Below are positions 224-53,786 of a DNA stretch of 55,670 bases, one piece after another. Source of the DNA: a virus; the IMG/VR virus record IMGVR_UViG_3300030118_005064, positions 1-55,670 of that record; one strand, given 5' to 3'. The position numbers were made by a program, and so were the translations under genes. The notes below the pieces were generated by a model that saw only the letters and a program-made list of their open reading frames with translations, was not told the DNA's origin and ran no database searches. Every line of letters starts with the position of its first letter. The stretch's first letter is position 1.

Positions 224-508
224 ATGAAAGAGTACGGCAGTCTTGGTCTTGACGACATCGCTCGGCTACAGAAGCGCGGCATCCGCCTTAACGAGTCCTA
301 CGGGGCTTCGGTGAGAACAAACGAGGACAATCCCCTCGCAGGCGTTACTCTCAAACAGCGCAACCGTAATAAAAGCGCAGGGGATGTCCTTAACATCGGC
401 TCCGGTACGAGGTGCAAGCATTGTGGAATGCTGTACTTCTGTTGGGTTGACAAGTGCAGGACATGTAGCAAACCGATGGACTTCAATTTGGGAGTGAAAG
501 AACAATGA
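224..508 (+). CDS. Small zinc-ribbon protein, 94 aa
   Basis: The C-terminal third carries two CxxC knuckles (CKHC and CRTC) about a dozen residues apart, the layout of a small zinc ribbon. The N-terminal part is basic and Asn/Gly-rich with no known domain. The ATG at 224 is preceded by GAGGTG; an in-frame GTG at 215 falls inside that Shine-Dalgarno-like sequence, so the ATG is preferred. The stop overlaps the next start as ATGA (505-508), indicating translational coupling. Function is unknown; it may bind nucleic acid or help assemble the virion. Confidence 0.7.
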   Translation: MKEYGSLGLDDIARLQKRGIRLNESYGASVRTNEDNPLAGVTLKQRNRNKSAGDVLNIGSGTRCKHCGMLYFCWVDKCRTCSKPMDFNLGVKEQ

Positions 509-720
509 CAACACCACTGGATGAGGCTTGGTTTGTTTTGAAAAAGCAGTTGCCATCATTGGAAGAATTACAGGATGACCCTTTGGCGTTTATGTCAGAG
601 GAGGAAAAGCGGGAGCGAGAACTTAGGGAAAGGATAGAAACTGTGCGTAGGATTACTGGTGAGCCAAAAGAGATACCAAACCCTTCCCGTCGTTTTCCAT
701 CAGCCGCCGGAAATGCTTGA
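505..720 (+). CDS. 71-aa protein with N-terminal AWxxLK motif
   Basis: The protein starts MTTPLDEAWFVLKKQLP and then becomes a highly charged, probably helical Glu/Arg-rich segment (residues 30-50) with a Pro-rich end. It has no known domain. Its first 13 residues match the starts of two unrelated plus-strand proteins in the window, the ADP-ribosyltransferase-like protein at 27257 and the kinase-like protein at 52962: an Ala-Trp at residues 7-9, two variable positions (the second hydrophobic), then Leu-Lys. Here the tag sits on a short body, so this could be a small virion-internal protein or scaffold-like factor; that is inference. Translation is coupled to the upstream gene by an ATGA overlap. 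Confidence 0.7.
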   Translation: MTTPLDEAWFVLKKQLPSLEELQDDPLAFMSEEEKRERELRERIETVRRITGEPKEIPNPSRRFPSAAGNA

Positions 721-733
721 GGGAGGAATATGA

Positions 734-2353
734 ATGCCAGTAGTGTTCAGTCCCGGTGAGCCTGAGACAAGGCCGCTTGACCCGGAGGCCATCGTCTACA
801 CAACTGGAGACAAGGTAGGGCAACTTCTCGGCATCGCCGCAGGTGAGCCTGTCCTTGGAGCGGCCGACGCCGTGTCCGACGGCTTCTTCATTTTGGGTGC
901 AGATTTCAGAGAACATGGATTTGAGAGTGGGGACACCATCCTCGTCCACAGCGACCTTGACCCGCTTGGTACTGAGTTCGTTATCACGGCTCCGACCGTC
1001 GTGGATGTCAGCGGAACAAAGTATGTGAAACTGCCAACGACCGGCGTCACTCATGCCAACTACACGACGACGGCAAACACCGAAATCCAAAACAAGACGA
1101 TTTTCACCAACGGCAAGCGAAGAGGCGTGACCAAGAACATCGTCAATGACCACATCAAGAGAATCCAAGACAGGATTGACAACTACACTCACAACGCATG
1201 GCGACCGTATTTGGTCTCGGCCGAGTACATCAACTTTGACACCTACAAGCCCTACCGACGGCGATACTTCACCGACTATGTGGGTACGACGCCTCTGTTG
1301 TTCCGTAATGTTCAGCAGATGCTGAGAATTGAAATGTGGCAAGGTGAAGACTACCGGGAGATTTGTGGTGCAGAGGCTCGCCTCAATTTCAGCGATGTGT
1401 CAAACCTCGCATCGGCAAAGGTGTTCTTGTCTCCCGGCAACGGCAGTGTCGCTGAACTCGCACAAGGCACTGCGAGCAATCAGTGGCGTGACGATTTTGA
1501 CGCTACGACCGTGGCTCAGAACATCGCCGACCTCATCAACAAAGAAGACAGGGTGAACAAGGCGGCTGTAGAGTTCAGCCCCACTTTTACCTTGGAAGGC
1601 GCATCATCCAATGTGGCAGTTCACAACGAGTTCTTGGCTTCGGCCAACGCAGACTACGGCACGGGCATTGTCAAAATAACTTCCATGCGACCCGTTAAGG
1701 CAGGCGAGGCGTGCAGTATCGTCACGACATCATCTGACATCGCTATAGACCACTCCTCTCGCAATACAGCCACCGTCACAAGCGTCGTTTCCACCACCGT
1801 CAATGTGGACTCAACGAACGACTTCGTTGACGCAGGCGTGTGCGTTAAGGGTGATACGGTCTTTCGCTACACCGGCAAAACCGCTACATCGTTCACGGGA
1901 TGCGTTGTGGTCACGGGTTCTGCCTTGAGCGACATCTCGGGAACAATCACTCAGCACAAGTTCTCTTTGTCTTTGCAGGCAGGCTCGCAAAGCACCGTCG
2001 TTGACGCCATCACTGGTGAGACCACAGTGGACAGAAGTAGCAGTGGAGACAGCGCTCGTTTGCGAGACTGGTGGCTTGACCACGAGATGGGCATCATTTA
2101 CTTCAACAACTCCTATCCGTTTTTTGAGTTCAACTCTGTCAAAGTGGCTTACATCTACGGTGAGCGATACCTTGAGAAAGCAATTGAAGAAGCCGCCACC
2201 AAACTTGTAGCGAGCGAACTGCTGATGTCCGACGACCGAAGTGTGCTTATTCCCGAAGGAAGCCAAAACATTGACCTCGGTTCCAAGGCACAACTGTTTC
2301 GCAGAGAGGCCATGGACATCCTCGCTCGCTACAAAGAAGTGGTGGTGTGTTAA
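734..2353 (+). CDS. Virion structural protein, possible head-tail adaptor
   Basis: A 539-aa protein rich in Thr, Ser and Asp with beta-type texture, preceded by GGGAGGAAT. The C-terminal ~80 residues are helical (YLEKAIEEAATKLVASELL), a pattern seen in head-tail connector or neck proteins. Around residues 345-405 there is a beta module ending in a 'GDTVFRYTG' turn that resembles modules in other structural proteins of this window. It is followed by tail-terminator-like and tail-tube-like genes, the usual order of head-tail joining genes in tailed viruses. No catalytic motif is visible. A structural role is well supported by context and composition; adaptor is a guess. Confidence 0.6.
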   Translation: MPVVFSPGEPETRPLDPEAIVYTTGDKVGQLLGIAAGEPVLGAADAVSDGFFILGADFREHGFESGDTILVHSDLDPLGTEFVITAPTVVDVSGTKYVKLPTTGVTHANYTTTANTEIQNKTIFTNGKRRGVTKNIVNDHIKRIQDRIDNYTHNAWRPYLVSAEYINFDTYKPYRRRYFTDYVGTTPLLFRNVQQMLRIEMWQGEDYREICGAEARLNFSDVSNLASAKVFLSPGNGSVAELAQGTASNQWRDDFDATTVAQNIADLINKEDRVNKAAVEFSPTFTLEGASSNVAVHNEFLASANADYGTGIVKITSMRPVKAGEACSIVTTSSDIAIDHSSRNTATVTSVVSTTVNVDSTNDFVDAGVCVKGDTVFRYTGKTATSFTGCVVVTGSALSDISGTITQHKFSLSLQAGSQSTVVDAITGETTVDRSSSGDSARLRDWWLDHEMGIIYFNNSYPFFEFNSVKVAYIYGERYLEKAIEEAATKLVASELLMSDDRSVLIPEGSQNIDLGSKAQLFRREAMDILARYKEVVVC

Positions 2354-8620: not shown

Positions 8621-10657
8621 ATGGCGACTCCAATCAGACTACTGGGCGGTTTGCAAAATGAGTTGCAAATGGATTTGCTGGCACAAGCGATTGACATCAG
8701 CGTTGACAGAAACGCTTCTCACTTCCCGACGCCCAACAACATCCTGAAACGCTTTGCGATTGATACCAACACGCCGAGAGTCATGGTGGAAATAAACGGG
8801 GTCATTATCGGTGACGAAGGCACCGAGACGCACCAAGGAGGGAGCACAATCACGGACAGTTCCGTACCGCTCCGTACACTCATCAATTTTGGTAGCATGC
8901 TACCCACCGAACCGTTCAGCGCGTTCAAACCTACAGGCTTTGGCACGGTTCACTTGACGAGTTATTCGTACGCCACCAGCAACATCAACAAGGATTTCCC
9001 AACCTTTGTCACCGACCGTCAGTACACGGTTGGGGCCACGAACACCATCAGCGGTGCCACGGCTTTGGGCAACAGGCGTGTCAAAAGGTGGGCATCGTCT
9101 GCCAACCTCTCCGCTAAAATCCAAACCACCTTGAAGTTCACAGGGAGTTCCAGCATAGGTGCTACAGGGGCACTACCAGTGGAGACCATTCTTTCGGTCG
9201 GCGGTTCGGCCATGTCCATATCAAGCAATCCAAGCGAAATAGGAGCGTCTGCTCTGTTGAATGTCGGCGACCGGGTGGTAAAGGTTGACGGTACTTTCCT
9301 TGGAGAAGTGTCGGCCTTGACTGACACGGCCGTGACTTTCAAGGATGCCTTGACTTCTGCCATAGCGGCCAACGATGAAGTCTATGTTTCACCAAAATGC
9401 TTCAATGAAAGAAACGAGTTTGTAGGGTTTGTCGTGGGCATTTACGACGACTCCAGCGTCAGTCAAGGAAACGACGCACAGTGGTACATTGAGTTCAGCG
9501 GCAACATTGAGACGAATGTCAGGGACGGCGACACGCTCACCATCAATCAAAGTAACCCGTCAATTGAAGCCACTCTTCACAACGAGTGCGTCAAATTGGT
9601 TCCCTCGTATTGGCTTGAGTCGGTGTCTCGTAATCCCAAGGGCTCTCTGTGTCAAACAGATGTCACGATGGGTCAAGGTAGTGGAAACATTGGTGTTCGT
9701 TTCCGTTTCAACGCCAGCAAGACACCTTCTTTGCTTGGAGGAAGTGACGCCATATCCATCATCCATCAAGCGAAGGCGACATCTCGTGCCTTTTCGCACA
9801 CCAGTGTGTCCGTGCCACGAGGAGATGCCGCTTTCTTTGACGCCGTAGTTGAAATACCCATCAAAGGGCTGACCACCACGGCAGGCAAAAATCCCGCAGT
9901 TATCATGGCTGAATTGCTTGAAGACGCTTTGGCAGTCTCAGGAAACATCAGTTCAGTCAATGTCAGCCCGACGGGTAAGACGCTGGCGGATGCGTTCAAG
10001 GTGACGAGACATCAATCCATTGTTGTCGTAGAGCAGATTTATCGTCCCGATAGGGACATTATCCATCCCGAGGCTATGTCCATCGTCATTCGCAAAGCGT
10101 TCCAGCCTCAAGTGTTTCAGGGTGGCGGTGTCAAAAGTAGCAGTGCGAAGAAGTCGGCCGGGGACAAAGTGCAGGATTTGATAGGGCTGGTTTCCAATTC
10201 TCAAAAGGACATTGACATGTTCCGAGGTATTCAGATACCGTACGACAGTCTCATCACCAGTTCAGGCGTGACGGGCACGGCAAGGAACTTTTTCTTGACC
10301 TTCGGTGATGTTCCTGCATCTGAAAAGGGTTCGTTGAACAACACTCGCTCGGCTTCGGAGATGATGAATCAAGTGATTTTGTCAAGCGATGCTGGAGGGA
10401 ATGTAGATGAATCAGCCAAAGAGGGCTTCTTTGACCAAGTAATTGATGCGTTGGTTCCTGAAACCGTGCAATCCCTTGTTGGCTTTTTGACAGGTGCAGT
10501 GGAAGATTTGTTCGTCACTCTTACGACGCCAAGCCACGGCAACGATGGCGGAATACGAATTATGCCGGAGAAACTTCATGTGCGATATGATGCTGGGAAC
10601 AACTACTACGCATTCACGCTGTTGCTTGTTGCGACGGACTTTGTAATAGGTGTTTGA
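8621..10657 (+). CDS. Tail-tip structural protein B, paralogue of A
   Basis: A 678-aa protein related to the preceding one at both ends: the N-terminus starts MATPIRLLGG and reaches a VEINGVIIGDEG segment matching IQGVLADDEG in A, and the C-terminal region shares a KSAGDKVQDLIG motif, FRGIQIPY, ARNFFLTFG and a closing 'YAFTLLLVATDF' strand. It lacks the LamG-like insertion. Residues ~185-260 hold the small beta module (VGDRVVKVDGTFLGEVSAL, then NDEVYVSP) that recurs in other virion proteins. Probably arose by tandem duplication and forms part of the tail tip or baseplate. Confidence 0.6.
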   Translation: MATPIRLLGGLQNELQMDLLAQAIDISVDRNASHFPTPNNILKRFAIDTNTPRVMVEINGVIIGDEGTETHQGGSTITDSSVPLRTLINFGSMLPTEPFSAFKPTGFGTVHLTSYSYATSNINKDFPTFVTDRQYTVGATNTISGATALGNRRVKRWASSANLSAKIQTTLKFTGSSSIGATGALPVETILSVGGSAMSISSNPSEIGASALLNVGDRVVKVDGTFLGEVSALTDTAVTFKDALTSAIAANDEVYVSPKCFNERNEFVGFVVGIYDDSSVSQGNDAQWYIEFSGNIETNVRDGDTLTINQSNPSIEATLHNECVKLVPSYWLESVSRNPKGSLCQTDVTMGQGSGNIGVRFRFNASKTPSLLGGSDAISIIHQAKATSRAFSHTSVSVPRGDAAFFDAVVEIPIKGLTTTAGKNPAVIMAELLEDALAVSGNISSVNVSPTGKTLADAFKVTRHQSIVVVEQIYRPDRDIIHPEAMSIVIRKAFQPQVFQGGGVKSSSAKKSAGDKVQDLIGLVSNSQKDIDMFRGIQIPYDSLITSSGVTGTARNFFLTFGDVPASEKGSLNNTRSASEMMNQVILSSDAGGNVDESAKEGFFDQVIDALVPETVQSLVGFLTGAVEDLFVTLTTPSHGNDGGIRIMPEKLHVRYDAGNNYYAFTLLLVATDFVIGV

Positions 10658-10658
10658 A

Positions 10659-13600
10659 ATGAGTCTGCTGATTGAACCGGGCTTTGGTCTCAAGTTCAAC
10701 GGTATCAGCGATAGCGTTCTCGTTCCTGTCAACAGCAAGCAGATTCACGGAATCCAAGACGAGGGCAGAAAGGCCTTGCCGGTGTCTCTCAACGCGTTCA
10801 CTCTTGAGTCGTGGTTCATTCCCGATTGTGGCGGCGTCGTTTTTGAACAAGAGAATGTCATGCGGTTGACCGTCGGTAGTCCCAGCAGTCCGGCCCCGGC
10901 AACCTTTGAGGTGCGACTGAGAAACCCAGCAAGCGGAAGAGAAGCAATCTACACGCTGTCCACTGCCAAACCAGTGACCAAGGCTAACGGAAGGATTGCC
11001 TACTGGGACGGTGTTCTGTACCCCGCAGTGAACGAGATTCACGATGCGTACTTGGCAACTGACGCTGGCAGAAACGATGTCACTGCCTTCAACTCAGGAC
11101 ATCGTGAGTTGCTGAATGTCACCGTCATGTTTGACAGGCGAGTCATCAGCCTCTTTGTGAACGGTGACTTGGCAGTCTCTCAGACTTTGGAAGAGCCGCA
11201 TGAACTGGTTACTCAACAGAATCACATCTATTTAGGTGGGAGAGGTGGCGATTTCCGAGGGACGCTTGAGTCGGTGCATCTGTCAAAAGGCGCACTCCCC
11301 TCGGGCTATCAACAGTACGCTCCCGTCAAGAGTGACAACACGCTCGGCCTTTGGCGCTTTGAAGAGCCAATTGAGCCCATCAGTCTCATCACCACCACGC
11401 CGTCCATATCAGCGTCCACTGGTGCCAGTTCCACCGTCAATGTAGGTACAACTGCGGCACAGGCGCTTGTTGACGAGTTGACAGGGCAAAGCGGTCTGAC
11501 TTCCGTGGACTTCACTGACACCACCAAAGCGTACAACTCGGGCTCCTACTCCGTCACGGTTCACTCATCCACTTCCACCAGCACGGCGACGATTCCCAAA
11601 GTACCGTACAACATTCTCATCAATCCGCTGGGCTTCAATCAAACGACAGGTAAGCCGACAAACAAGGCACCTGAACGCATGAGACTGATGTCCGTTGACG
11701 CAAGTGCGGGCACTATCGTCGTTGAGTCCATTCACCTTGACTTTGAAGCCAACGCCTCTACTGGACGCCGAGGAGCGCTGATGGCTCACGATGCAGGACG
11801 CTTCGTTATCATCACGGGCGACTGCATCGTTGATACCGGCAAAGGCAACGAGTTTCAGCCGTACGGTAGCGGCACGCAGTTTTCACAACGGCAGGGACAG
11901 GTCTGCATTGATGAAAGCGATTACGAGAACCACGGCGTGGTTTTTTCACAAAGCATGGCCGTTGATAGTCACGAGTACAACAAGTTCTCTGCCAGCACAA
12001 CGAACATGGGCTCTGACTTACTCGCAGGTCATTGTGGACGACACACGCTGAATCATGTGGTCAGCCACCCGTTTATGGGTTTGCTCCCCCCTACGAGCCA
12101 CCACAGCGTTGACAAGAAATTGGACATGGGAAGCGATGTCATCACAGCGGCGTTCCCATCTCAGTTTTCTGATATACGCTCTACGGTTCCTGCCAACAGC
12201 ATCGTTTCCAGTTATGACATCCACTCACCCATCAAGGTCCAAAGCATCACATCGTCCACCGTCGTGTCTTCGTTGGTGGAAAACGGGATGTCCGACATCG
12301 CTGACTCACAGCGAGAAGTCTTGGCTTTTGGCGGTGAGGGTTTCAACCCTGTGCCGTTTTTGTTGAAGTCAGTGCCTTCACATCAAGAAACAGGAAACAC
12401 GCGCCACGCCATACCCTCCGTCAACTCACGCATCGCTACCTTGTCTCTCCCCAACTTGGCCACTTACGACTACGCCCCGTTCGTGCAAGTTCACTACAAC
12501 GCCCTTGACTACGAAGGCACCGAGTTCTCAGTCGGGGCTACAAGTCGCCTCACTGGTAACATCAGCGGTAGTAACAAAGTGCTTACACTTCAAAGCATCA
12601 AGTCGTTCGGCCACGACGGACAAACGATACTGGGCATGAACATACGCATCGGCGGCACTGCGGCAACGACGGACAGTCAAGTTTTCGCAACCATCAACTA
12701 CAGCGCCAAGACGCTCACATTTTCAGCCGCCGTTGCGTCAGGGTTTGCAACGGCCGCAACGACTGGAGCGATTGTGCAGAAATTGGACTTGACTCCTAAA
12801 CTCTTGGTTGAGAAGACACTGCCCAGTGTCAGTACAATCCTCACAGGCTCCTACTCCATTCTTGATTTGATTCACGATTCCATGGCAATCGGCCCGCTGA
12901 CCCTGTTTTCTCCCGGCGGTGTCATTGATTTTGAAACGCCCAGCATGCTTGCTTTGACCGATGGCCAGTTGGAAGGTGACAACTCTGAAGGCGTCGTTGC
13001 CGAAAAGGTGCTGAACCAAGACCTCTGTCCTGAAAATTATCTGCCGTTGACTTCAACTGACCCGCCCGCTACAACTCCACAAGCCATAGCGCTCGCTACT
13101 GCCGAATTGTCCAGCCGCAATTCGGTGTTCCATAGAGTCCTCGTGAGAAGCAACAAAAGTGAAATTGCTGATGTGGAGGAAGTGGCTGACGCTACGACGC
13201 AGTTGGCTTCCAACGGTAGTAGGCCACGAACCGGGGTGTTCATCAACAACGGGTCAGGTTACTCTTCCAGCACCAGCAGTGCGATGACTGTTGACGGAGC
13301 AGACGCCACCGCTTTCTTTGAGGTTGGTGACCGACTCTACAAAGCCGACGGCACAGACCTTGGAGCAATCACTGCGGTTTCAAGCACAAGCGTCACGGTT
13401 GGTGGCGGCACCACTGCCGCCGTTGTTGACGATGATGAGTTGTTCAGTCAACCGCAGATGTTTGGCTTGGGTACAACGAACCAAAGCACCTGTGTCAACG
13501 AATACTTTGACATCATTGAGCACACCTCGGTAGGGGGTCGCACGAGTCTTGTGGTACAGCCGAGCGACCGAGAGCGGCTGAACATGCTCAGCAAAATGTC

Positions 13601-16600
13601 CGACAGTTCGGATAGAGCCAACTTCATTTCCATTGAAAACCTGATTGCGAGAGGCAGAGTGGTTTCGTTTGCAGACGGTGAAGACGGCGAGTCTGTTTTG
13701 ACCGCTTACGGTACATCGGGCGACCTTGCTTCGTCCAGCGTTTATGTCAAAGGGTCCGCCGCACCTGACAGTCACATTGTCAAGGAAATCATGCCCGGTG
13801 CACCTGTCGTTACGATGATGCTCGGCGGGGTAGGGCAAGGGGCCATTAACACCAAGGAGACTTACGACCCAAGTCCACTTGCACGCCTTGCTTGGAACAC
13901 TCGGCACGATTGTCAAACGAGAGTGACCAGCACGACGAGCACGACAGCAGTCGTTGCTCCATTGAACAACAGAACGACTGACTTGCAGTCTTGGGGGACA
14001 TACTGCTTCCCCAAAGTCGGCACCGTCTACCTTGAAGTTGCCAGCAACGAAGGCGAGAGCATCAAGTTTGCAACGGCTCAGTACACCAGCAAAACAGGTG
14101 ACACATTCACCTTTGCTTCGGGTACTGGACATCAAGGCACTGGTAAGTTTGTACTTGCAGACGGAACAGAGTCCGATTCGTTTTCAGCGTGGGTCACGGC
14201 GACTGGCATGACGGCTGGAAGTGTTTTGCATGTTGACGATAAGTTCGGCGAAGAAAGCATGTGCAACGACGGAACCACCATCAACGACCGCTTGTTCCAA
14301 ACACTGGACACTGTACAACACGATTACCAACTGGGGACACAGTACGCAAGTACGAGAGCGCTTGTTGAGATTCCGTTGTTTGAGGAGTTCTTCTTTGACA
14401 GGCCCGACCAAGGTATATTTCCCGGTCCTGACAACACGATGAAAATCCACATTGACGCTACACACACGGCTCACTCTTGGGCACCGAGCCCGGTTGGTAG
14501 AAGAGTGCCATCTGTGTCACCGAGAGACCCGGAGATTTTCGGGCCGTTCTCTTACGCAATCCAAGCAGATACTCACCGTAGCGGTACCAAAGTCACGCAA
14601 CCTTACGATTCTTCTACGCACCGCATTTATGTTGAGGATGCAAGTTTGTTCCCAATACCTTCTGCACCACCTGTTTCCGTCGCAGGGCTTGGGGGTAGCG
14701 CAAGGTACCGACGCGCGTTCTTGGCAAGCGGAGAGTGGGTCATTTATTCAGCAAGAGACACCAGTAACAATTTCCTGACAGTTGTAGGTTCGGCCAGTGA
14801 TGATTTCATCGCAAGTGAGAACTTCTTCCGAGACTTGAAAGTAGGAGCGTTCATCCTCCCTGCTCCCGGCTATCAGGACATGAATTACACCGGGATTGCT
14901 GACAACCCCAGTCTCATCAGCGCAGGCTATGAGAATCGTCGCCCGTTTTACTTTGACCGCTCCAATGTGATGACGCAAGGTGGAAACACCGACTACGGAC
15001 TCAAGCAGTATGTGAGTGCAATTGAACTGCGAGCAGGTCCAAAAAGCAACCCTCACTTGCCGAAAATCAAATCCAAACGGCCACGAGCCAAGGTCATCGC
15101 AGTATCGGGTAGTCCTGCAACATCCATCACGCTGGACGACGCCAGCCTCTTCCCAAAAGACAGCCCTGACAGCGATTACAAGTTCAGGGTGGCGTGGCGA
15201 AATGCAAGTGGCACGGTGTTCAGAGGTTTTTACACCGGGAGAACAAGCAACACGCTCACCATATCCAGTTCAGATTCAGGCTTCACTCCGTCCGTAGGCG
15301 ATGAAGTCTACATTGAAGACTTGCACGCCACTGCTTCGGGTACCTTTCCAAAAGTCAAAGAGACATTCCTCAGCAGAGCATGGTCTCATCCTTTCTGTGT
15401 CGGCGGGTTGCGACAAGGTGACACGGTATGGATGAACATGCACTACACCAATCCTCATGCAATTGAAGGAATGTTCTGCAAGAGTCGGGGCACGCTCAAC
15501 GAAGCGGAGGTATGGAAAGGTTTCAACGGCGGCGTCGGCAGTCTCCATGCCAACCCAAGAGACAGCATCCCGATGGAAAACTTCCTGATTGGCGACAGTT
15601 GTGTTGAAACAGCACAGAATCTCGTTCAGCACATCAACAAGACGGTAGAGGTCAATTACGACGCACTCGGCTTAGACGAAACGCCGCCTGTTGTTGCTTT
15701 CATTGACCCTTATCAGTGCACAGAAGACTTTGCACGAGTGTTGTTGTACGATGTAGAGCATGACCGTGAGTTCATCGCTTTCCAAGACATTCACATGCAA
15801 GTCCAGTCCAGTCCTGCCGCCGCTACCATCGGTACGCAATCGGGCCTCAAAACAGGTGCCATTGTGAACAGCAACGATGCCAGCGGTTCTTTGTTAGATG
15901 TTGCCGCTGGCTTTCCCAGTCAAAACAAAAACCTCAACACCACTGCTAAATCAGACTTCATTGAGTCGGCTTACGCTCACGGTTCAAATGTCAACGAAAG
16001 CGTATCAGGAGGCTTAAGCACACACAGCGTCGGCGGTATTGAGAACACAGCAGACGACGGCTACTCCACAAGGACCAATCATGCCGTGGCGGATGTAGCG
16101 GATGCTCTTGCCAAACATCAGGAGATTGAAGCGTCTGTGCGAGAGCGGTCAACCTTTTTTGATACGCCCGACGGCACGCGTGTTATCCCTGCTTTCTTGG
16201 CGATGAAGGGCATACGCAACAGCACGCTGACGCTTGACGACACAAGATTGAATCAACTTGACCACTGGACAAAAATGGATTTCGTTCGCCGGTTGAGTGT
16301 TGATTTGGGTGAAGTAGCACTCCGAGATGGCGTTACAAACATTGAGTCTGCGGCAAGAGAAGTTGTGCGACTCATCAACCAAGCAGGTGCAAAAAATGGC
16401 AAGACGCATGCTCGTAGACCAAACGACCAGTTCCTTGGCGAAAACGACAAGTTTGACCCGGCTTCGGTCCATCAAAAGGCAGACTTTGCGGCAACGGCTT
16501 CTACGCACGACCCTGCTCCATTTTGGGATGTCAAGAAGGCGTTTGCAAATCACGACCGAGGGACACACATGGGCTATGTCCGGGCGCACTTGGGCCGTGT

Positions 16601-19600
16601 AGTCCTTGACTCTGATGGTAACCAAGGCTTTTCCGTCGTTATCCACTCAACCATCCCCGGTGCAAGCGGTCGCAATTTCTGCGCTTGGCTTGACGCCAGT
16701 CGGGCACAAACGCCGTACCGACCGCAATACCTCATCGGTCACGGCGGTCGGTTCCGCAACTACTGGTGCCAACCTGATGAAATCAGTGGAGAGAACATGC
16801 ACCCGGCACCGATGCCCATCAATCGTTTCGGTAGACCGTTTGCACCAATCACGACACTCAAGGAGTATCTACCACCCGAAAATGTTGACGATGAGACGAT
16901 GAACAATCTCAACTTCGGTGCTGACACAGTGGACAGCGGAACGAACTTGCAGTTCTCCAACACAGAGGTTGTTTCAGGAAGAACCAGCAATACGCTTCTG
17001 AATGAGTCGTTTGAAACTCAAAGCCCTGCATCGGCACTCGTTGATGGTCTGAGAGTGGGTACGAAGGCCAAATCAAGAATCAATTTTGGCGGAATGACCA
17101 TGGCTGGCATACCCGGCTGGTCGCCTGACTTGAGTAAGTGGGGCTACACTAACGACGGTACGGTCAACGCCACAAGGTACGGCAACGCGTCCAATGCCTC
17201 TGACGCCATGACCGTGACAACAGAAGGAAGCGACGACGGCTACATCCCCAAGACGGACATGTTGGCAGAAAACATCGGTAGTCGTCCACTTTACGGTCTG
17301 CGCTTTGAAGACCATCGTGGGGACAATCACACCATCCGTTTGTTGTACAAACAGTTCGGCAAGTCCTTTTCAGGCGAAAACACCTACCTGCCTCCGACAC
17401 TGGACGAAGAGGTCATCGTTCACTTTGACGACCGAGATGTAGGACAAGGTGGATTTACCATCGGTCGGCACATTGTCGGCACAGGTGAAGTTTGCGGCGA
17501 AAAGACTGGAGGCAGTGCCAAGAAGTTCAAAGGAAACCTTTGGAACACCTACCCGTCTCCAATCGTGGGAGTCAAAGTCGCTACATCGCTGTCCAGTGGT
17601 ACCATGACGGTGACGCTGGACGCACCGTATGACACCAGTGCACCTGCCGTGATGCAATCTCACCCCGACATCCTTGGCTACCTTGGTTTCCCAAAGAGCG
17701 GAATGTTCCAACTGTCAAAGCACGGCACGGGCGGTAGTGACCACCAAGGGTTGACATTTTACTACACGAGCAGAACACACAACAATTACAGCGGCAGTCA
17801 CAAGTTTTTCGGTGTACTCGGCGGTTCTGCCAGCCACAGCAACGGCGACTGGTACATGAGTCCAAGAATCAACTTCACGAGTCTCTTGACGGATGAAGTG
17901 ATTGCGGCGGCAGTGGCTCACGCTATCAACATGGAAAGCACCACACAAGACAACATTGAGGCAACTTCGTTTGACTGCACTGACATGTTCGCACCCGATG
18001 GACGCACCTTGGGTGAGTGGGGTGTGAGTCCGACAGCCATCCGAATCAAGGTGCGGTCGGATTCCAAGGTGCCACTCAACCGCCTGTTTGAAGCCAATGT
18101 AGCAAAGGACTTCGGATTGCTGGATGGTGTTTCCACAGAAACAGTGGACAGTGGGACGCATTTGCAAGGCTTAACGGACGCTGACAAGGATGCCGGAGTG
18201 AGGCTGGACATCGGGTACATACCGAAGACCGTCTTGCACATCAGCACAAAGTACAGAGGGACCAATGCAAACACCGCTACCCCAGTGTTGGTTGACAGTC
18301 AAAACAGTGTCGTTGACATCATTGACTGGCAGAGAAATCTGAGAGGAGAAAACTTCACTGACATCGCAGGTGACCACATCATCCCACGGGTGGACTCTCC
18401 TTGTGTAGAGGTGCATTCTTTTTCGGACCCTGACATCAGCGTAGCCACGAATGAATCGTGGGCTCTGCTTGGCAAACCAGCGTCTGACACAGCCAACAGT
18501 TGGGGTGAACCCTTCATCGTTTGGCACAGTAGCAACGCTTGGGCAAGAGTGCGAAGTAAGGCAGGCGTCAGTGACCCCGAAGAAGTGGTGACCATTGAAA
18601 GTAAAAGCACCAACCCAGTGGCATTCCCCAACCCTGCCGCAAACGACATTCTTTGGAAGCGAAGTTCAACCTATCGTGATTTTTCACAGATAGACGGTGT
18701 GAGGATAGCGGGTAGCAAAAACTCCAGTCCGTTTCTGCACTTCCGAGGTGGACGGGACAGCCCTGACCACTATGTTCCTCTCTACTTTGGTGGTGGTTTT
18801 AGCGGCGTCGTGACGGACATCAATGACGGTACGCAGAACGACTATGCTGATTTCTACACACATCCATACTCCAATGGACCCACCGGTTCGGCTGGTTTCC
18901 AAAATGTAGGAGAAATCGCTGGTTCGTTTGCACTCATTGACACCAACGCCATGATGGCCATGTTCCCCGGCACGGTCTACCTTGACCAGCACAAAGGACA
19001 GAATCATCCCCCTTTCTTCAATCAGGATGCCATACTACCCTTTGACATGACCAAGGGAGCAAACAGCAAAGCGACTGGATTGGACTACACGGACGGTACG
19101 AACTCTGTCCACGCTAACATCCCGAGCCCTGTCATTCTGCGCTTCGCTCATCCGCATGCCCGCTACAAGCACGATAGCAGTGCGAGTGACGCCACAACTT
19201 ACATGATTTTTGGACCGGGACAGGCTTTCCCGCATAACACAGCAACAACTGAACCACAGGGTGCAAACATTGTCACCGCTGGCAACGGCTACAGTGCAGT
19301 GCCAATTCACATCGGTGGCGATGCAAGTAAGGATTCGTTCTTGCCGAACCAATTGGCTAACGGAGACAGCGGAGAACACAGCGGTTTCAACAGAGGAAAC
19401 GCTTTGGCTCACTTGCCCATGACCACTTTCTTTCAGAAGAACAATGTTTCCGGTTTCAATTACACGATGAACTGGCAACCGACAAAGGGCTTTCCGAATG
19501 TGAATGCTTCCGGCTCTCGCACATACTCGCAAACTAACATCATGGGGTTCTTTTACGAAGGGTCAGACCAATCAGTCACAGGACTTCCCAAGCACTATCA

Positions 19601-22600
19601 CCCGTTCAATCACATCTTTGATGACATCAGCAGTAACGCTGTTGGCGGTTCAAGCCATCCGACTACGAGAAAGTCATCTGTCATTTGGCACATGGATGGA
19701 GGGTATCACCCCGGCGGTCATTTCCTTGACGACCATGTACGGAAGAATCCCAAAAATCATGCGGCAAGTGCATTTTTGTCAACGGGTAGCGGTGCTAAAC
19801 ACAACACAAGTGCCTTCCGACCTGCTGGACTTCTTGCCAAGGCTTACCTCAGTTACTATGGGGGTTCGCCTGACAATCAAGTGTTGGACGACAATGTTGT
19901 CGTGGTGGATGCCACACGCTGTCAAAACGCAGAAGAACTTGGTGCAGTGCTCAGCGGTGCCATTAACACCTTCCCCGGCAAAGACCCGTTGAAGGCGATT
20001 GGCGGCACTTTCATGCCCAGTATGCAGAACGCTCACAAGCAAGACCGCTACGGTTGGGTAGAATTGGCAGTGAACGAGTACAATGCCGAAAACGGCGGGA
20101 CACCTGCTTCTTTGCGAGTCACCAGCACGACGACAACACTTCCCGATTACGGTTGGCTAAGAGTCAGTAACGGCACCACTGCGGGCTTTGCGCCTTACAT
20201 TTCTCACAGCGTTTCAGCACCAAACATAACATTTACGCTTGCGAAGAACACCATCACTTCCAACACCAATGTGGTAGACCCCCAAGCACGCAGTGCAATT
20301 ACACCTGACTCAAACTACAAAGCGTATGTTTGGGCCAAGGCAGGCACTCATCGCTTCAACAACGCCGCCTCCGGCGCTTCAAGAGACCACATAACGCAGG
20401 TTCACTTCGGCGGGTTCCAAGACGCCGTTGACAGGACCAAGCCGGTCGGCGCTGTAGGATGGCACGGTGAGGCCTATTCGTACCTCAATTCGTATGAGGC
20501 TTCCAACAAAATAGGTGCCAATTTGCACCCTGCTGGCTTGGGGGCATGGCATCCGTTCTTGGGCTTCAATCCTTACGGGGCCGCAGAAACTTGCGTCAGT
20601 GGAGGAAGCCCGGTCAGCAAACTTGCGGAAGGCGGTGCAGTCGTGTCGTTTTACGAGGATTACTGCGTGAGTGGACTTGCCAGTCGTCATCTCGTAGCCA
20701 TCACTCACGAAAGCGAGTTGCCGTTGATTGCGAAAGCCGACAAAGACGGCGTGAGTGGAATGGGCGATTGGTTGCATGTTGGCCAAACAGGCAACATTGA
20801 GCATGCTGGTACGGTGGCATGGGACGCAAGCAAGGTGCACAACAAAGACCGTTATGTCGGCACCGCTACGGCCGGACCGCATGTAGAAGCGCAGGTTCAC
20901 TCGGGTTTCTCGTTGCCCACGGCGAGCAGTGATTACCCTGCCGTTGGTAGCGCACCTTCTGACTCACAACTGCACAGAACCATCCAAAGCGGTGACATGG
21001 TGCGAGCAAATGCTTGCAACTATCCAACTGGGGATTTGTTTTGGGACGAATCTGTTGTGAAAAACTCGGCTTTCCACGAGGACAGAGGGACATACGGTGT
21101 TGAGTGTATAGGAGTCAGCGACCGGAACGACTACCTGAACACTGCCGCAACGCCCTACAAAGGTCTGTACAACTACTACAACGAGCGTAGTGCGGCTCGC
21201 AATTTCTTGCCGGAGCATGTCGTGTGGAAGCGCATGGACGGCGGCAGTGTGACCATGCCCGCTGTCAACGCTCGTGGGCTCGGAATGATACCGTGGACGA
21301 AGCGAAAGGACGGTAGTGAGTACAAAACCGTCGGCGAAAAAATCCTTGGCAACAACCGATTTTCTTTTGAGACGACCAACGCCGCCATGTTCCCCATCAT
21401 CCAAGCACAGGAGTTGTCGCATCCACAGTTGGCGGAACAACATCCGCTTGAAATCAGAAACGCCCTGTTGATTCCCAACGAGCACATCCAGTTCCAAAGT
21501 GTCAGTGTCGTTGACGATACCGGGCAAGAACACCGGTTGGAGGGTGGTAGCCCACTTGGAACGGTCATCATGGACTTCCGGCACATCAGTGACCGTGAAA
21601 TTGAAGGCCTTGCTCCTGCCCTTGCTGGTGCAGGTGTAAGTCCAAATCTCAAAATTCGCTTGCCCAATCCTGACGAGATTCCCGGCAACATCGTGGTCAG
21701 GTCAGGATTTGACCGCTTACAGGGCTATCAAAACGAAACCATCGGTAGCGGTGGCCTGCAACACCCTGCACAGGCGAGTGCTCAACTCCAGTCAATGTTC
21801 GGCAACTCACAGCCGGGACCAAGGCTGTTTCCAACATGGGAGAACAACGGTTGGGAACATCTCAGTCAGGATGCAGAAGACATCTCCTCCGACACGAGTC
21901 ACAGTCGCTTGAAGTTCCCTGCTTCTACTTCCGAAGGTTGGAGTGACCACACTGATAACGCCCCTCTTGATTCTGCTTACGAGCCACACGACCGAAGTCT
22001 GTTCTTCCATGTCACTCGCATGGGCGTGTCCATGACGCATCGTTACGATGTTGACGAACTGACCTACTCCAGTTTCAGCGGTACAGAAATCACCGTCGGG
22101 TCTACACCCGAAGCGGCTACATGGACGGATTCAAACGAGCAAAGTAGCGGTCGGTATTTCCTGCGCGTTTATGACCCAACGACCGACAAAGGCGTCATCG
22201 CTTCGTACACGGGAGTGGGGACAAACAAGTTCACAGGCGTCGTCTACAGTCCCGACTTCTCGTCATTCGTGGCCGGGAAGACTGGACTCAAGGTTGTCCC
22301 ATCGTACTACATGCCTGCTGGCTCAACAAGGCTGTTTGCGGCAAGGCGATTACGAGACCACGCAGAGTACAGCGGTGCCAGTCCTGACATGAAGTCCATT
22401 GATTGGTTCACGCTTTACAGCAATCTACCTGCAAACACTGGTGCCATGGCGGCAACATCCACAGCCTACACCAACTTGACCAAACCGAAAATGACACCAA
22501 TGCCCATACCAAGAATGGGGCATCATCATGTCAATGCCACCATGGCACTGATGCCCGGACACTACGCTCACCCTGCTTACCAGCGACTGTACGACCTCAA

Positions 22601-25600
22601 CACTGCTTGTCAAAGTGCAAATTACAAGTCTGCCGACCACGACCTCATCGGGCCTTTGGAAGCCACAAGGACATCGGTCACCGCTACTTTGCAAAGCGAC
22701 GGTTATGTCAGAGACCCGCTCGCTTGGTTCTCTACACCAACTGCACCGTTCGGTCCCAGCGACATTCACGGAGGCAGTTTCACACTGCTCACTGAAACCA
22801 AAGTGAAGTACGAAGGCTACGGCATAGCCGCCAGTGCAGGTTCCAACGCAGGTACCATCAACTCACAAGGAGGTCATACGCTTGTTCTTGAAGCGGCCAA
22901 CACCTACACTCTGAACAATCATTTCCCTGACCCTCTTGAAGTAGGCGCATACCAAATCATCATTCAGCCAAATGTGTTCAAACAGCAACTGCAAGGTTTC
23001 CATCTCAACCACGGCACCGAAAACAAAGCACCCAGCGAAAGCGGAACCAAGGTCACTGAACTGACAGGTCAACAAGTCAACACCGTGATTGCAATTGAGA
23101 AGAACATGAGCACGAGGGGTGCTTATGCTCTCATTCTTGCAGAGGCCATGATGGCTGATGTACGAGGCTGTGAGGTCATTCTCAATGAAGTGATTTTGGA
23201 CATTGAGCCGGACGCTGGAAGTCAGTTCACCAACTTGGCTCCGCTCGCTCTGTACAACCCGTTAGGTGTGCAAGAGAGCACGAGTCCCTCATTCACACGA
23301 CGAAGCCTGCCATACCGTCCCGGTATGTTTGAGTCGTCCACTCCGGGTCGCACTTTGACCATCCCTTGGTGGGGCATCCTGCACAAAGACGGGGCGACTT
23401 CCTCCAGCGCTGACAAGTTTAAGCACCTTGAGTGGCACAAGCCTGACAACTACTACCAACTGTGCAGGGCCAACTACGGTTCAGTAGGGGCGCAGTTGAC
23501 GCTTGCTGGCTATCCTACAAGTTTCCTTGACATCTACGAGCCGCACAAGCGTCTGCGTAGCCTCAATCCAAACTGCATCGTTATCAGCGATAACGATTCT
23601 GACACCATCGTTGTTGACGACAATGCTTTGTTCCCTGTGCAACCCTATTACGGCGAGAACTTGGTGTACTTCAAAAACGGCATACGCTACACGGCCACTT
23701 ACACCAACCGGACAGGAACGCTCGCTCATGCTACCCTCGGAGAAAGCGACACCTTCTCAGGCGTGACTGGAACTACTGAGTTTTGGGCCAACTTGAGTGC
23801 GGGCACTGTTTTGCGACTTACCACGCCTTATGACAACGGAGATGCTGACTCACTGTATATAAACTCTCAAACCAGTTTGATGACAAGAAATCTGCCACAA
23901 GTGGCCAACGGGAGCAGAGACACCAACTCGTTACAACCGGCTGATGCGTTCCTTTGCATGTGGCATCCAAATCTCGGTCGCCCGTTCACTTGGTACAGCG
24001 ACGACAACAGTAGAAGTTTCTATGCGAATACAGGTGTGGCGGACGCCCCTGTCAACCAAAAGCCGTACAATCATGTACCTGAGCACTTTGAAACCATTCA
24101 CTATCACGATTTCAACTATGTTGCCAGCAAAGGACCGTTCGCTCTTGGAATGGAATGGATAAAGCCACCCGTCACTGAAACCGATTCATACTCCCTCCAA
24201 GCAGTGTCCGATTCAGTTGGTACCCTGTCCAACCGCAGGGGTATAAATTTCCAGCAGATTCTCGCCACTACCACATGGATGACAGGTATTCGTGTAGTTG
24301 GAAGTGACATCATTACTTCCAACCGTGGCAACAATAATGATTTTGACACAGACAATGTGTTCTTTTCCAAGATTGATATAGCGAATACTGATGGAATTTT
24401 TGACCAACAAAGTGCTGGACTTGGTGATTCGGACCTCAACAGTTGTGATGGGTTTGACATTGACCCCAGTGGTACGAAGATGATTGTCACAGATTTTCAT
24501 GGCGGCGGCATACGAAGTGCGACGCTTGCATCTGCCTTTGATGTGTCAAGTACCTTTACCTTCACCGGTAGTAGGAATGTGTCAAGTCAGACAGGTATTC
24601 GTGCTGTCTCATGGAACAACGATGGCACCAAGTATTTCATCGGTTACACATCTACTGTCCGTCAATTCACTGCCGGTACGGCTTATGTGGTGGCCTCCGG
24701 TGATACCGAAGGCACCTCTGCTACGCTGTCTTTTTCCAACATAAGCGACATCGTTTTCAGCCCGGACGGAAGCAAGGTGTGGTATGGAGACACGAATGGG
24801 TATGTACGAGAGTACAGCCTGTCCACACCGTATGACACTTCTACCGGCAGTGCGACTGTCACGCTTGACCTGCGTACTTACTTCCTCAACAGAACCGCGT
24901 CTGTGTCTTCAAACTCTGCTACTTCCACTCCTTGGCTTTCAGGCATTGACTGGAGTGACGACGGGACGAAACTCTATGTCTCTACGCTGTACGGCGTGAT
25001 TGACGACAGCAAAATGTCCAACAATCCAAGTCCAGCAACGGTCAACGGCATAGACGGAGCAAACACCACCAATCGCTTCCCGATTATGGAAATCAGCATT
25101 TCAACGACCACCGAAAGAGAAGGGACAGGTGCGGCGTTCACTGCCGCAGAGATTGACGCTGATGCAGTTTTGACACATCAGGGCGGCACGCTTGGTTCCA
25201 ACAAGTACAATTTCTTCGGCTTTTGGGGAGGGGGTAGTCATGGTGGCGGGGCCGTGAGTCGGTTGGAATCGTACGGACATTCCTTGATTGGGTGGGGCAG
25301 TGATACCTTTGGCATGGATTGCGAAACCTATCAAGACTCTACAGGAGTGGCTACTTTAACACTGCCGAATGACAGAAACCGATGTTTCGGTTATCGCATG
25401 GCCGTACGGCAGTTGTACAACCGACCTCGTTGGTCACCGTACATACGAGGTTGGTTGGAAGTAGCGAACAGCAACGCCATGCTCGGCTACTATCACGGCC
25501 CTCTCATCCAACACGACTCCAAGTCAAACGGTTGGGACTATGTGGGAAGCGATTCGGGCGAAAGCGATGCGGACATCACTGCCATGAACATCGGCATTTT

Positions 25601-27256: not shown

Positions 27257-27661
27257 ATGACACCGATGGAGAAGGCTTGGGTCATCTTGAAAGAGATGCG
27301 TCAAACGGAATTAGGTGAACATCATGAAGAGTTTCCCAGTTCTTACGGTGAAGTGACTCATTACCACGGTACAGGAGAAGCGTATGCTCCGTCTATTCAA
27401 AGACAAGGACTTCAACCGGGTCTTGGACATCATGGGTATGGAGTGTATATGACGCCTGACCTTGCGGAAGCCGAGTATTACGCAAGAAAGCACCGATACG
27501 GCGGCATACGCTACAATTCCCAAAATTACCAACAAAGCGAACCCGTCGTTTTTGCGGTTAGGGGTAACCAACTACCAATTGAAACCATGACACCCGAAAT
27601 ATCGTTCCTTGATTCTGCTCCGGTGCCCCCACAGCGACTTGTGAGGATTCAAGGGAAGTGA
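27257..27661 (+). CDS. PARP-like ADP-ribosyltransferase, candidate virion-delivered effector
   Basis: A 134-aa protein. Residues 1-13 (MTPMEKAWVILKE) carry the AWxxLK tag shared with the proteins at 505 and 52962. Residues 33-132 fit a compact ADP-ribosyltransferase fold: 'HYHGT' with candidate catalytic His37, an 'I.RQGL' helix (47-52), 'GYGVYMT' with Tyr64 in the place of the PARP GxGxYF Tyr, a following 'A.YYA' helix, and Glu114 in 'TPEISF' as the third H-Y-E residue. Such enzymes transfer ADP-ribose from NAD+ to proteins or nucleic acids. The ATG at 27257 follows GGGGAG; GTG 27248 overlaps the giant gene stop but would displace the tag. The target is unknown. Confidence 0.6.
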   Translation: MTPMEKAWVILKEMRQTELGEHHEEFPSSYGEVTHYHGTGEAYAPSIQRQGLQPGLGHHGYGVYMTPDLAEAEYYARKHRYGGIRYNSQNYQQSEPVVFAVRGNQLPIETMTPEISFLDSAPVPPQRLVRIQGK

Positions 27662-27664
27662 AGA

Positions 27665-29317
27665 ATGATGGCACTGGGCAAGAATCTCTCAACCGGTCGG
27701 TCTGACGCCGCTCAGGACTCGGTAATGAAGGTGATTCGCAAGCCACGCTTTGTTGACAACGCCGTGCGACACGGTGAGTACACCAAGACTGCCGCTGGCT
27801 TTGTCGTCAACGCTCCTACACAGTCGGACTTCATGCCGACCACGGAGAAGCGTTACAGGCTGATTGAGGAGGAAGATACCATTCGTTTGCTTCACAATCC
27901 GTCGGACAGTGTTCGCTACGAAGGGGCGCTGTTCCTTGATGGTGACAAGGTGACGACTGCCAGCACGCTACCTGCGCTCGTGGTGGGCGCTGAGAACAAC
28001 GACCAAGCCCTCGTCGTGTCGCAAATCCAAGACGCCACCAAAGGCACACGGTACAGGCTGGAGAACCTCAAAGGTCGCAATCTCAAGTCCATCGGCTTCA
28101 CCGACAAAACCATCCATTTTTCTCAGAAAGTTGGCGTGGGCTTGCGAACTTCTGACTTGGCTCACCGTGTTGCCAAAGCAAACACCAGCGGTATCAATGG
28201 CGTACGGGCTCGTACCCCCAGCCTGACTTTTTTGGCCCAAGACTTCTTGGGCGTGGAAGCGTACACGGCACTCCGGTTTTTATCCAAGCATGACGGCTAC
28301 AGCCCCAAGGCTGACCGATTTGGAAATGTTTGCTACTTCCCACAGAACCACATTGAGCGTGAACACTTTGTAGGTGAGAACAGAGTTCTCGGCGGCTCTA
28401 TAGAAGAAGCCAGTGAAAGCACGCCAAACCGTGTTGTCGTGCGTGGCAAATCAAGAGCCAACAACCAAGACAACGCTGTTCAAGTCAACGACTTCGGCAG
28501 GCAACAAAACGGCATCACCGAGGTTCCGGGTGGCATTCATGCTCCTACTGCTGTGACCAAAGCCAGTGCTAAAGCCATCGGCCAGCGCATGTTGAAAATG
28601 GCAAAGAACTCTACGGGCAGTCGTAGGTTGGTGGATGTCACTGCCGCCAGTCACATGCACCCCGGTGACATGGTGTCGTATCAGACAAGGACCGACAATG
28701 AGCGCTACATTGTACTTGGTAGTCGCATCAACCTCAATGACAAAACCAGTGAACTACATGTGAACTCAGTGGATGTGACGCTGGAAGATGTTCTGCAACG
28801 CTTCCAAGAAATAGATGTCAGCGGTAGCACCGATGCCAACGATGAGCGTAACAGGCAATTCGCTGTAGAGGAGTTTTCTACTTCGTTTGGCTTCAAGGTC
28901 CGAGTAAGTTGGCAACTGTCCGAGCGTGCGGACATGAATCGGGGCGTCGGCTACACCATCGGACTACCTCGCCGAAACACCATCAACGGTGCACGACAGT
29001 TGCAAGGTACAGGCGTCCTTATCAACAATGGAGGCGGCTATGCAGTGGGCACGACTTCCTACACCGTGGACGGCACCTCGGCTTCCTCCGCCTTTGTCAC
29101 CGACAACCAAGCCGTCTACACTGCTAACGGAAACAAACTGGGCCACATCCATCTTGCTTCTGTCGGCTCTACTACCGTTGTTATCAAGTCAGCCAGCGTG
29201 CACAAAGTAGCCAACAACGACGAACTCTTTTTGTTGTCCGACTCAGCCGAAGCACTCAACAACCACCTGAAAATTGGTGCCGTACACAGTTATTTCTTGA
29301 AAAACAGGAGAGGATGA
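27665..29317 (+). CDS. Baseplate / tail-hub-like protein
   Basis: A 550-aa protein. The first 60% is mixed beta with a stretch (residues ~300-380: RRLVDVTAASHMHPGDMVSY, then GSRINLNDKTSELHVN) like the hub domain of phage baseplate proteins, where a rigid ring domain ends with a conserved strand and helix (VTLEDVLQRFQEID). Residues ~445-525 hold a beta module (GVLINNGGGYAVGTTSYTVDG, later NDELFLL) clearly homologous to one in the giant protein at 13237. ATG codons at 27665 and 27668 are both usable. Position among tail-tip genes fits a baseplate hub; no lysozyme or peptidase motif is seen. Confidence 0.45.
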   Translation: MMALGKNLSTGRSDAAQDSVMKVIRKPRFVDNAVRHGEYTKTAAGFVVNAPTQSDFMPTTEKRYRLIEEEDTIRLLHNPSDSVRYEGALFLDGDKVTTASTLPALVVGAENNDQALVVSQIQDATKGTRYRLENLKGRNLKSIGFTDKTIHFSQKVGVGLRTSDLAHRVAKANTSGINGVRARTPSLTFLAQDFLGVEAYTALRFLSKHDGYSPKADRFGNVCYFPQNHIEREHFVGENRVLGGSIEEASESTPNRVVVRGKSRANNQDNAVQVNDFGRQQNGITEVPGGIHAPTAVTKASAKAIGQRMLKMAKNSTGSRRLVDVTAASHMHPGDMVSYQTRTDNERYIVLGSRINLNDKTSELHVNSVDVTLEDVLQRFQEIDVSGSTDANDERNRQFAVEEFSTSFGFKVRVSWQLSERADMNRGVGYTIGLPRRNTINGARQLQGTGVLINNGGGYAVGTTSYTVDGTSASSAFVTDNQAVYTANGNKLGHIHLASVGSTTVVIKSASVHKVANNDELFLLSDSAEALNNHLKIGAVHSYFLKNRRG

Positions 29318-52961: not shown

Positions 52962-53786
52962 ATGAGCAGGGCGCTTGAGATGGCTTGGATGCTGTTGAAG
53001 GCGTCCATGCCGCCGTTCGTCCCTCGTCGCTTGGATGACCAGTTGGGCATCGGAAGTTATCGTGCCGCTTACGAACCGCCGGAGGACTCCGACATTGGCT
53101 ATACAACCAAGTACGGCACGGGTGAAAAGTTGGCTGATACCATGGTGCTGGGTCAACTTGCAGAGATGTTCCCCGAAGCCTTCGTGGGAGAACAACTGCA
53201 TGCTTTACCAGTTCCCGAATCACAATTACCACTCTTCACCATGCAGGCTCGTAGGGACAAAGACGACCCACTGTCGTACAGCGAGCCTTACATGGCCGAC
53301 GAGTTCTTTGACTACGGTGCGGATGGTGGGCACAATGTTATGCCGGTGACCTACACCCAAGAATTGGGTGCACCCATTGAGTCCGATGTCAACTGGCGAG
53401 AGTTGGCCCCGCACATTGAAGTGCGTGACCGGTTGAGAGAACTGTACCCGCTTGCAGGTGCGCTTGGCGTCGGCGACACCAAGCCCGAAAACTTCGCACT
53501 GATGCCGGATGGCCTTGACATTCCTCAACTCAGCACCGCCGGTACCGTGAAAGTGATTGACCCCATGTTTGACTACCCCCGAAGGAGACCGTTCTACACG
53601 CCGGAGTTCAGACGGGAGGCCAGTCGCTTTCAGCAAGACCTCCCTGAATTGAGAGAGTTTGCTCAGCCCCTGTACGCTGGCCTTGACCAGTACAACGACC
53701 CCGCACTTGCTGAGCAAATGCTTGACGCCATTGTCCAAGGCGAGCAACAGAACCTGCAAAACATCCTCACTCCTCTGAATCCTTAA
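52962..53786 (+). CDS. Protein-kinase-like protein with AWxxLK tag, candidate virion-delivered effector
   Basis: A 274-aa protein. Residues 1-13 (MSRALEMAWMLLK) carry the AWxxLK motif. A kinase-like fold follows: Gly-rich loop QLGIGSYRAAY (27-37), candidate ATP-binding Lys50 in YTTKYG, a helix with Glu68 (LGQLAEMF), a hinge-like VTYTQELGAP (129-138), a catalytic-loop-like GVGDTKPENFAL (169-180; Asp172, Lys174, Asn177) and KVIDP (197-201; Asp200 replacing DFG). It would phosphorylate host proteins if active. It is the only plus-strand gene in this part and has its own promoter-like sequence. ATG 52962 is chosen; GTG 52956 would add two residues. It overlaps the next minus-strand gene end by 20 nt. 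Confidence 0.6.
   Translation: MSRALEMAWMLLKASMPPFVPRRLDDQLGIGSYRAAYEPPEDSDIGYTTKYGTGEKLADTMVLGQLAEMFPEAFVGEQLHALPVPESQLPLFTMQARRDKDDPLSYSEPYMADEFFDYGADGGHNVMPVTYTQELGAPIESDVNWRELAPHIEVRDRLRELYPLAGALGVGDTKPENFALMPDGLDIPQLSTAGTVKVIDPMFDYPRRRPFYTPEFRREASRFQQDLPELREFAQPLYAGLDQYNDPALAEQMLDAIVQGEQQNLQNILTPLNP

Follow-up and report, generated by a model that had tools for sequence, protein, structure and literature searches.

Besides its internal head proteins, bacteriophage T4 packages the ADP-ribosyltransferase Alt, and the injected proteins of a virus are normally learned only from purified particles. The otherwise different internal head proteins of T4 have in common a capsid-targeting sequence (CTS) of about 10 N-terminal residues, which is a portable tag for foreign proteins and is reported to be conserved in IPII and IPIII only (PMC9958956). 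In phage P1, a signal within the first 30 residues (perhaps 6–10) of DarB directs this antirestriction protein to the head, and a reporter needs nothing more to be loaded (PMC9024508). In bacterial microcompartments, encapsulation peptides direct unrelated enzymes into a protein shell; these are terminal amphipathic helices of ~18 residues with a disordered linker (PMC12339742).

Magroviruses are tailed viruses that infect archaea of Marine Group II/Poseidoniales and have been described among the most abundant viruses of the ocean (PMC10160649). The whole stretch of DNA analysed here, a virus record of 55,670 b that is called the window throughout, is judged by its gene content to be a fragment of a magrovirus genome, because its gene set matches that described for the group (PMC10160649). 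Its minus strand encodes a thermosome, a family-B DNA polymerase (PolB) and clamp-loader-type proteins, while its plus strand encodes tail-type proteins. To our knowledge, magroviruses have no cultured member and are known from metagenomes. The PolB of the window has 79 related loci, nearly all of them 60–91% identical and three at 41%. The closest long relative, G001 (100,986 b), has head genes that are absent from the window.

The main contig set comprises 15 related contigs that were fetched whole, together with the window (16 contigs). Throughout, ‘late’ and ‘early’ are labels by strand only, and refer to the plus (virion-gene) and minus (replication) strands, respectively.

A common start on three late-strand proteins

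The proteins encoded from positions 505, 27257 and 52962 of the window begin with MTTPLDEAWFVLKK, MTPMEKAWVILKE and MSRALEMAWMLLKA, respectively. The original prediction that three plus-strand proteins share a start is borne out, with Ala-Trp at residues 7–9 and Leu-Lys at residues 11–13. Also as predicted, the bodies diverge after this tag, having no common sequence and falling into three separate BLAST families, and none of the early-strand replication proteins of the window carries it. In the window, the motif occurs at a protein start on the plus strand only.

The first gene (505..720, plus strand) encodes a tagged protein of 71 aa and lies in a tail-gene operon, where its start and the stop of the gene before it (215-508) overlap. 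Its putative docking helix is encoded at 514..543 (plus strand; core PLDEAWFVLK). Searches of both Pfam and PHROG yielded no name for it. It is directly followed by the gene for a conserved virion-module protein (734..2353, plus strand), which has PHROG matches that include a virion structural family and homologues in 15 of the 16 contigs. In G001, the counterpart of gene 505 consists of two tandem tagged genes, MSAFNESWIFLKE... and MSAFSESWIFLKG...RFPSAAGNA, which have the C-terminal RFPSAAGNA in common.

The second gene (27257..27661, plus strand) encodes a tagged protein of 134 aa with a predicted ADP-ribosyltransferase (ART) fold, and its putative docking helix is encoded at 27263..27292 (plus strand; core PMEKAWVILK). 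It is a cassette, located between the gene for a giant late-strand protein of 5533 aa immediately upstream (10650..27251, plus strand) and that for a conserved virion (tail) protein downstream (27665..29317, plus strand; weak PF13550 match and 30 related loci). At this junction, where the giant gene meets the homologue of 27665, there are no tagged open reading frames (ORFs) in G001, one in the window, two in L088 and L090, and four in L094.

The third gene (52962..53786, plus strand) encodes a tagged, protein-kinase-like protein of 274 aa, with a putative docking helix at 52971..53000 (plus strand; core ALEMAWMLLK). It is a solitary late-strand gene inside the early (replication) block, in the window and in G001 alike.

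Anatomy of the tag

The consensus of 260 unique tags is [TSN]-[PA]-[FMLI]-[DE]-x-A-W-x-[LVI]-L-K. Numbered from the Trp at position 0, this comprises [TSN] at −6, [PA] at −5, [FMLI] at −4, [DE] at −3, any residue at −2, and Ala at −1, followed after the Trp by any residue at +1, [LVI] at +2, Leu at +3, and Lys at +4. The core from −5 to +4 carries 2.1–6.1 bits per position among these 260 tags, except at the variable positions −2 and +1, in a logo that is biased at −5, −4, −3, +2, +3 and +4, since the underlying set of 330 ORFs was gathered partly with the tag pattern. Among tags picked from the 16 contigs by W..[LIVM]K alone, the positions left free by that pattern have the same preferences. 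The border of the tag is sharp, with all positions from +5 onward below 1 bit. An alignment with a single representative per family, for 150 body families, was conserved only as MxAFDxAWxxLK. The tag occupies residues 4–13 of the protein.

In the logo, a helix N-cap residue is followed by Pro or Ala and, three positions after the cap, by an acidic residue; the hydrophobic residues are spaced as i, i+3, i+4, and i+7. Based on this pattern of capping and periodicity, together with low-confidence models, the tag probably forms a short (~10-residue), self-capped amphipathic α-helix. The AlphaFold model of the kinase-like protein places a helix at residues 3–12 with a pLDDT under 50, and that of the ART protein places one at residues 3–18.

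Enrichment and distribution

Across the 16 contigs, which were chosen without use of the tag, W..[LIVM]K occurs within the first 13 residues 59 times in late-strand proteins (9,737 positions) and twice in early-strand proteins (8,970 positions), and there are 87 occurrences at internal positions (about 402,500 positions). The late-strand N-terminal enrichment has an odds ratio of 28 (p about 4e-56, uncorrected for relatedness). Enrichment at the N-termini of relatives, which had been put forward as a check on the shared start, is thus clearly present. When A-W-x-[ILMV]-[LF]-K was searched as a simple DNA pattern, it produced 62 matches in 37 related records, with up to 9 per genome, versus 4 for the reversed control. 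Genomes of roughly 100 kb encode up to about 9–12 tagged proteins, in which the Trp mostly lies at residues 5–11. Related viruses yielded 330 N-terminally tagged ORFs, which group into 156 body families, 109 of them singletons.

A pattern for the tag read from the ATG was found in at least 119 IMG/VR stretches, and in none for the codon-reversed control. In 257 Gb of GTDB genomes, both bacterial and archaeal, the same pattern had only 6 matches, and these were chance-like (early stops or isolated bacteria). As they form no family, a cellular source of the tag was rejected, as far as the tag-from-ATG pattern is concerned. Among the tag-bearing contigs that were checked, 42 of 50 encode the magrovirus MCP (longer matches 66–96% identical), and the remaining eight encode a magrovirus TerL or a Cpn60. 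Within the sequences covered by these searches, the tag is restricted to magrovirus-like viruses. When haloviruses with a related MCP were considered, one internal match to the tag profile, of 16 bits, was detected in vir519.

Position within proteins and genomes

The expectation that the motif would be N-terminal only did not hold, as the same helix is found internally and at the C-termini of other late-strand proteins. The 16 contigs contain 102 motif copies, comprising 61 N-terminal, 34 internal, and 7 C-terminal copies under crude gene calls (longest ORFs, first ATG), so that a wrongly called start accounts for some of the ‘internal’ copies found directly behind a Met. All 102 lie on the late strand, in a count that sets aside a W-less match in PolB. 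This is a conserved early-strand segment, PFDEAxALAKHL, which has no Trp and scores about 14 bits with the tag profile. At a threshold of ≥10 bits, the profile of N-terminal tags has 542 matches, about 40 of which are the PolB segment, and about 12 in shuffled proteomes. The internal and terminal copies that it recovers typically read [TS][GS]EPMDxA[WFM]xLLK.

Several late proteins carry more than one copy. G001 gene 109 has an N-terminal tag and the C-terminal end GEPMNMAWRLLKKP, and contains HEVGHAL, which by its sequence is an HExxH metalloprotease-like motif. G001 gene 93, located beside TerL, encodes a conserved, disordered-looking late protein whose homologues have 1–3 tag helices (e.g. 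G024:88685-90292), and which is a candidate assembly hub or cargo organiser. Two or three tags are also observed between domains in L315:10951-12882, L221:6036-7631, L253:2822-4480, and L307:10404-11816. These multi-tag proteins resemble fusions of tagged cargo modules, and [TS][GS]E stands before many of their internal tags.

In G001, a cluster of tagged genes occupies the 5' end of the late strand and is followed by head genes, namely TerL (PF03237/PF17289), portal (PF04860), S78 protease (PF04586), and an SU10-like MCP (PF17236). Tagged clusters in this location, at the late-strand 5' end and adjoining these head genes, comprise up to 8 genes. Further tagged genes enter the tail operon as cassettes.

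Bodies carried by the tag

In the alignment of the ART family of the window, Y36, H37 and G38 (YHG) are invariant. The model of the 27257 protein matches KptA/Tpt1 and PARP structures with a Foldseek probability of up to 1.00, a best E of 6.8e-3 and a TM of about 0.45; no Foldseek match has an E below 0.001, and there is a weak match to PF00644. The body as modelled has an ART/KptA fold with a conserved His near the first strand, and its activity is predicted. For the 52962 protein, the best PDB matches of the model are almost all kinases (best E 2.1e-3, TM about 0.3, no E below 0.001). Its family keeps the Gly-rich loop (G29, G31), the β3 Lys (K50), the catalytic Asp and Asn (D172, N177), and the metal-binding Asp (D200). 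On the basis of these invariant residues the body can be regarded as protein-kinase-like, with the fold itself being suggested by the model.

Pfam matches at E ≤ 0.01 among the 150 body representatives amount to 24 families in all, and most bodies match none. Recognisable bodies include D12-type and other DNA methyltransferases, NUDIX, GNAT, HD phosphohydrolase, TFIIS-type and other zinc ribbons, HTH, a ParB C-terminal domain, and DUF6321. Among all tagged bodies, the ART, the kinase-like protein, the DNA methyltransferases, NUDIX, GNAT, HD, and the TFIIS-like zinc ribbon look like proteins of a host-takeover or counter-defence type. The proposal that the tag is carried by enzymes resembling host modifiers is borne out in direction, with the effector type seen in a minority of tagged proteins.

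Untagged phage homologues of two tagged bodies were found as well. These are P-SCSP2 gp19, which adjoins a scaffold gene, HTVC027P gp49, which is encoded within a cluster of capsid genes, and WJZ48512 of DSL-LC01, beside capsid maturation proteases. The existence of such homologues indicates that the tag is an addition to the body, and that the company of these bodies elsewhere is the head module.

Two further shared segments accompany the tag. A second motif, HPA[IV]xGM or LGTxHPAxxGM, is located downstream of the tag in several otherwise different proteins (G001, G019, G020, L256, L260, and L323). A longer common leader, RQTTLGEFHPDFPSPYGPV, follows the tag in ART-type cassettes (the 27257-27661 family) and also precedes other bodies.

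Selection on the tag

The Ala, Leu and Lys of the tag are near-invariant as amino acids, while their synonymous codons vary. All six codons are used for Leu at +3 (entropy 2.27 bits), mostly three for Ala at −1, and both for Lys. A comparison of tags within one genome gives identities of 0.68/0.89/0.40 (G020) and 0.65/0.88/0.49 (G019) for codon positions 1/2/3. In an alignment of 11 homologues of the kinase-like protein, most of which are only 20–36% identical to the window protein, A8, W9, L12 and K13 of the tag are invariant, as are G29, G31, K50, D172, N177 and D200. Since codons vary while residues are fixed, and since the tag is as invariant as the catalytic residues of this diverged family, these alignments show the tag to be kept by selection at the protein level, and not as copied DNA.

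Codon choice in the tag is also affected by word usage. Ala-Trp is encoded by GCC-TGG in only 3 of 315 tags, because CCWGG-type restriction words have been lost from these genomes. The restriction-type words ACGT, AGCT, CTAG, GATC, TCGA, CCWGG, and GCWGC each have a count of 0 in the window (both strands counted), where roughly 80–490 of each would be expected. Across eight genomes tested, including the window, G001, G020, G024, G003, G027, and G021, AGCT and CCWGG are missing from all eight and GATC from seven, and the remaining words vary between viruses. Word loss from the window and its relatives suggests extreme pressure by several host restriction systems.

A putative cargo-loading signal

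On balance, the tag is probably a docking helix that loads late-made, unrelated proteins into the magrovirus particle, from which they would be delivered with the DNA. We infer this from a fixed docking helix borne by unrelated, late-strand, exchangeable, and partly effector-type proteins that are clustered at head genes. The hydrophobic face of the tag (F−4, A−1, W0, and L+3) would dock on one magrovirus head or assembly component, and the docked late-infection proteins would be loaded into the particle and delivered together with the viral DNA. The helix would be usable at either end of a protein, most often the N-terminus, or between domains, and would act like a capsid-targeting sequence or an encapsulation peptide. 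There is about an even chance that it constitutes a position-independent cargo code, whereby any protein could be docked on the head component and each virus would deliver its own set of exchangeable, unrelated enzymes, numbering up to about a dozen. Two of the tag copies in the window sit in the tail half of the module, away from head genes, which counts against this reading, as do the lack of a known family for most tagged bodies and the absence of the tag from HVTV-1, a halovirus whose capsid protein is related.

The main rival to packaging is that the tag docks to an intracellular late-infection complex, such as an assembly factory, a viral chaperonin, or a modified RNA polymerase, and that the proteins never enter the virion. 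The anatomy of a docking helix and the restriction to the late strand fit this equally well, and the virus-encoded thermosome is a possible hub. However, an ART, a kinase-like protein and a DNA methyltransferase are encoded late, although their use would lie in the early phase of the following infection. The adjacency of tagged clusters to terminase, portal, protease and MCP, and the presence of untagged homologues in the head clusters of phages, also make this explanation unlikely.

The tag had originally been proposed to be removable or docking. For removal, evidence of cleavage was looked for and none was found, and a simple leader is at odds with the copies inside proteins and at their ends. 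If it were a cleavable propeptide like those of T4, or a polyprotein linker, the tag would be cut by the prohead protease near the [TS][GS]E before PMDxA, thereby freeing the bodies inside the prohead. The virus encodes an S78 prohead protease, several tandem fusions have 2–3 tags, and [TS]-[GS]-E often precedes internal copies; however, [GS]E is missing from N-terminal copies, and the logo of 260 unique tags contains no conserved cut site behind the N-terminal tag. Moreover, some copies form the very C-terminus, as in G001 gene 109, where cutting would merely remove the tag. Such processing is therefore rather improbable.

It is very improbable that the helix is a host-membrane targeting, degron or stability signal instead of one that docks on a viral partner. 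Although the pattern is that of a short amphipathic helix, the conserved acidic residue at −3 and the paucity of basic residues are ill-suited to membrane binding, internal copies are frequent, and the fixation of A, W, L and K goes beyond general amphipathicity and implies a specific partner.

That the tag has no protein role, and is simply a common 5' end acting as a recombination hand-hold for swapping gene bodies, is scarcely credible. The bodies are wholly different and cassettes are gained or lost between near relatives, as this would predict, but synonymous codons are free while amino acids are fixed, the helix also occurs at C-termini and inside proteins, and old families whose bodies have diverged still keep the tag. 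The codon diversity and the C-terminal and internal copies thus disfavour it. Finally, the probability of a chance resemblance between three starts in one window is negligible, given at least 119 IMG/VR stretches versus 0 for the codon-reversed control, 62 versus 4 matches for the reversed control in 37 records, and the odds ratio of 28.

If the tag does load cargo into the particle, it alone would allow the injected proteins of uncultured archaeal viruses to be read from metagenomes. The tagged proteins would then be listed as candidates for host takeover and counter-defence in Poseidoniales, and the tag itself would be a portable cargo-loading peptide.

Comparison with known systems

No description of the tag motif was found in the literature searched. 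HVTV-1 (NC_020158) is a halovirus with a related capsid protein (MCP; 32.5% identity), and encodes a large protein between portal and protease. It differs in that the AW tag is absent by profile scan, and in having a repeated module of its own, VYVDSPDEAPEGVxVxxG...GGxxY. This module is found in otherwise unlike head-cluster proteins encoded by genes 115 and 116 (L337:18623-22564 and 22557-23018), and might have a docking or packaging role that parallels that of the tag.

The magrovirus tag resembles bacterial encapsulation peptides in its putative way of working only, and no homology is claimed; those peptides serve a cellular organelle and form a longer helix, whereas the tag is viral. The signal of P1 DarB is similarly N-terminal (residues 4–13 in the magrovirus tag). 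However, no consensus is common to the Dar proteins, while that of the magrovirus tag is explicit and common to its carriers. The T4 CTS is likewise a short N-terminal peptide on unrelated proteins, a form represented here by 330 N-tagged ORFs. In contrast to the CTS, the magrovirus tag has a different sequence, is carried by about 156 body families, occurs at internal and C-terminal positions as well, and has yielded no evidence of cleavage here. In its way of working the tag would resemble the known capsid-targeting signals, with no recognised sequence in common, on far more protein families and not only from the N-terminus.
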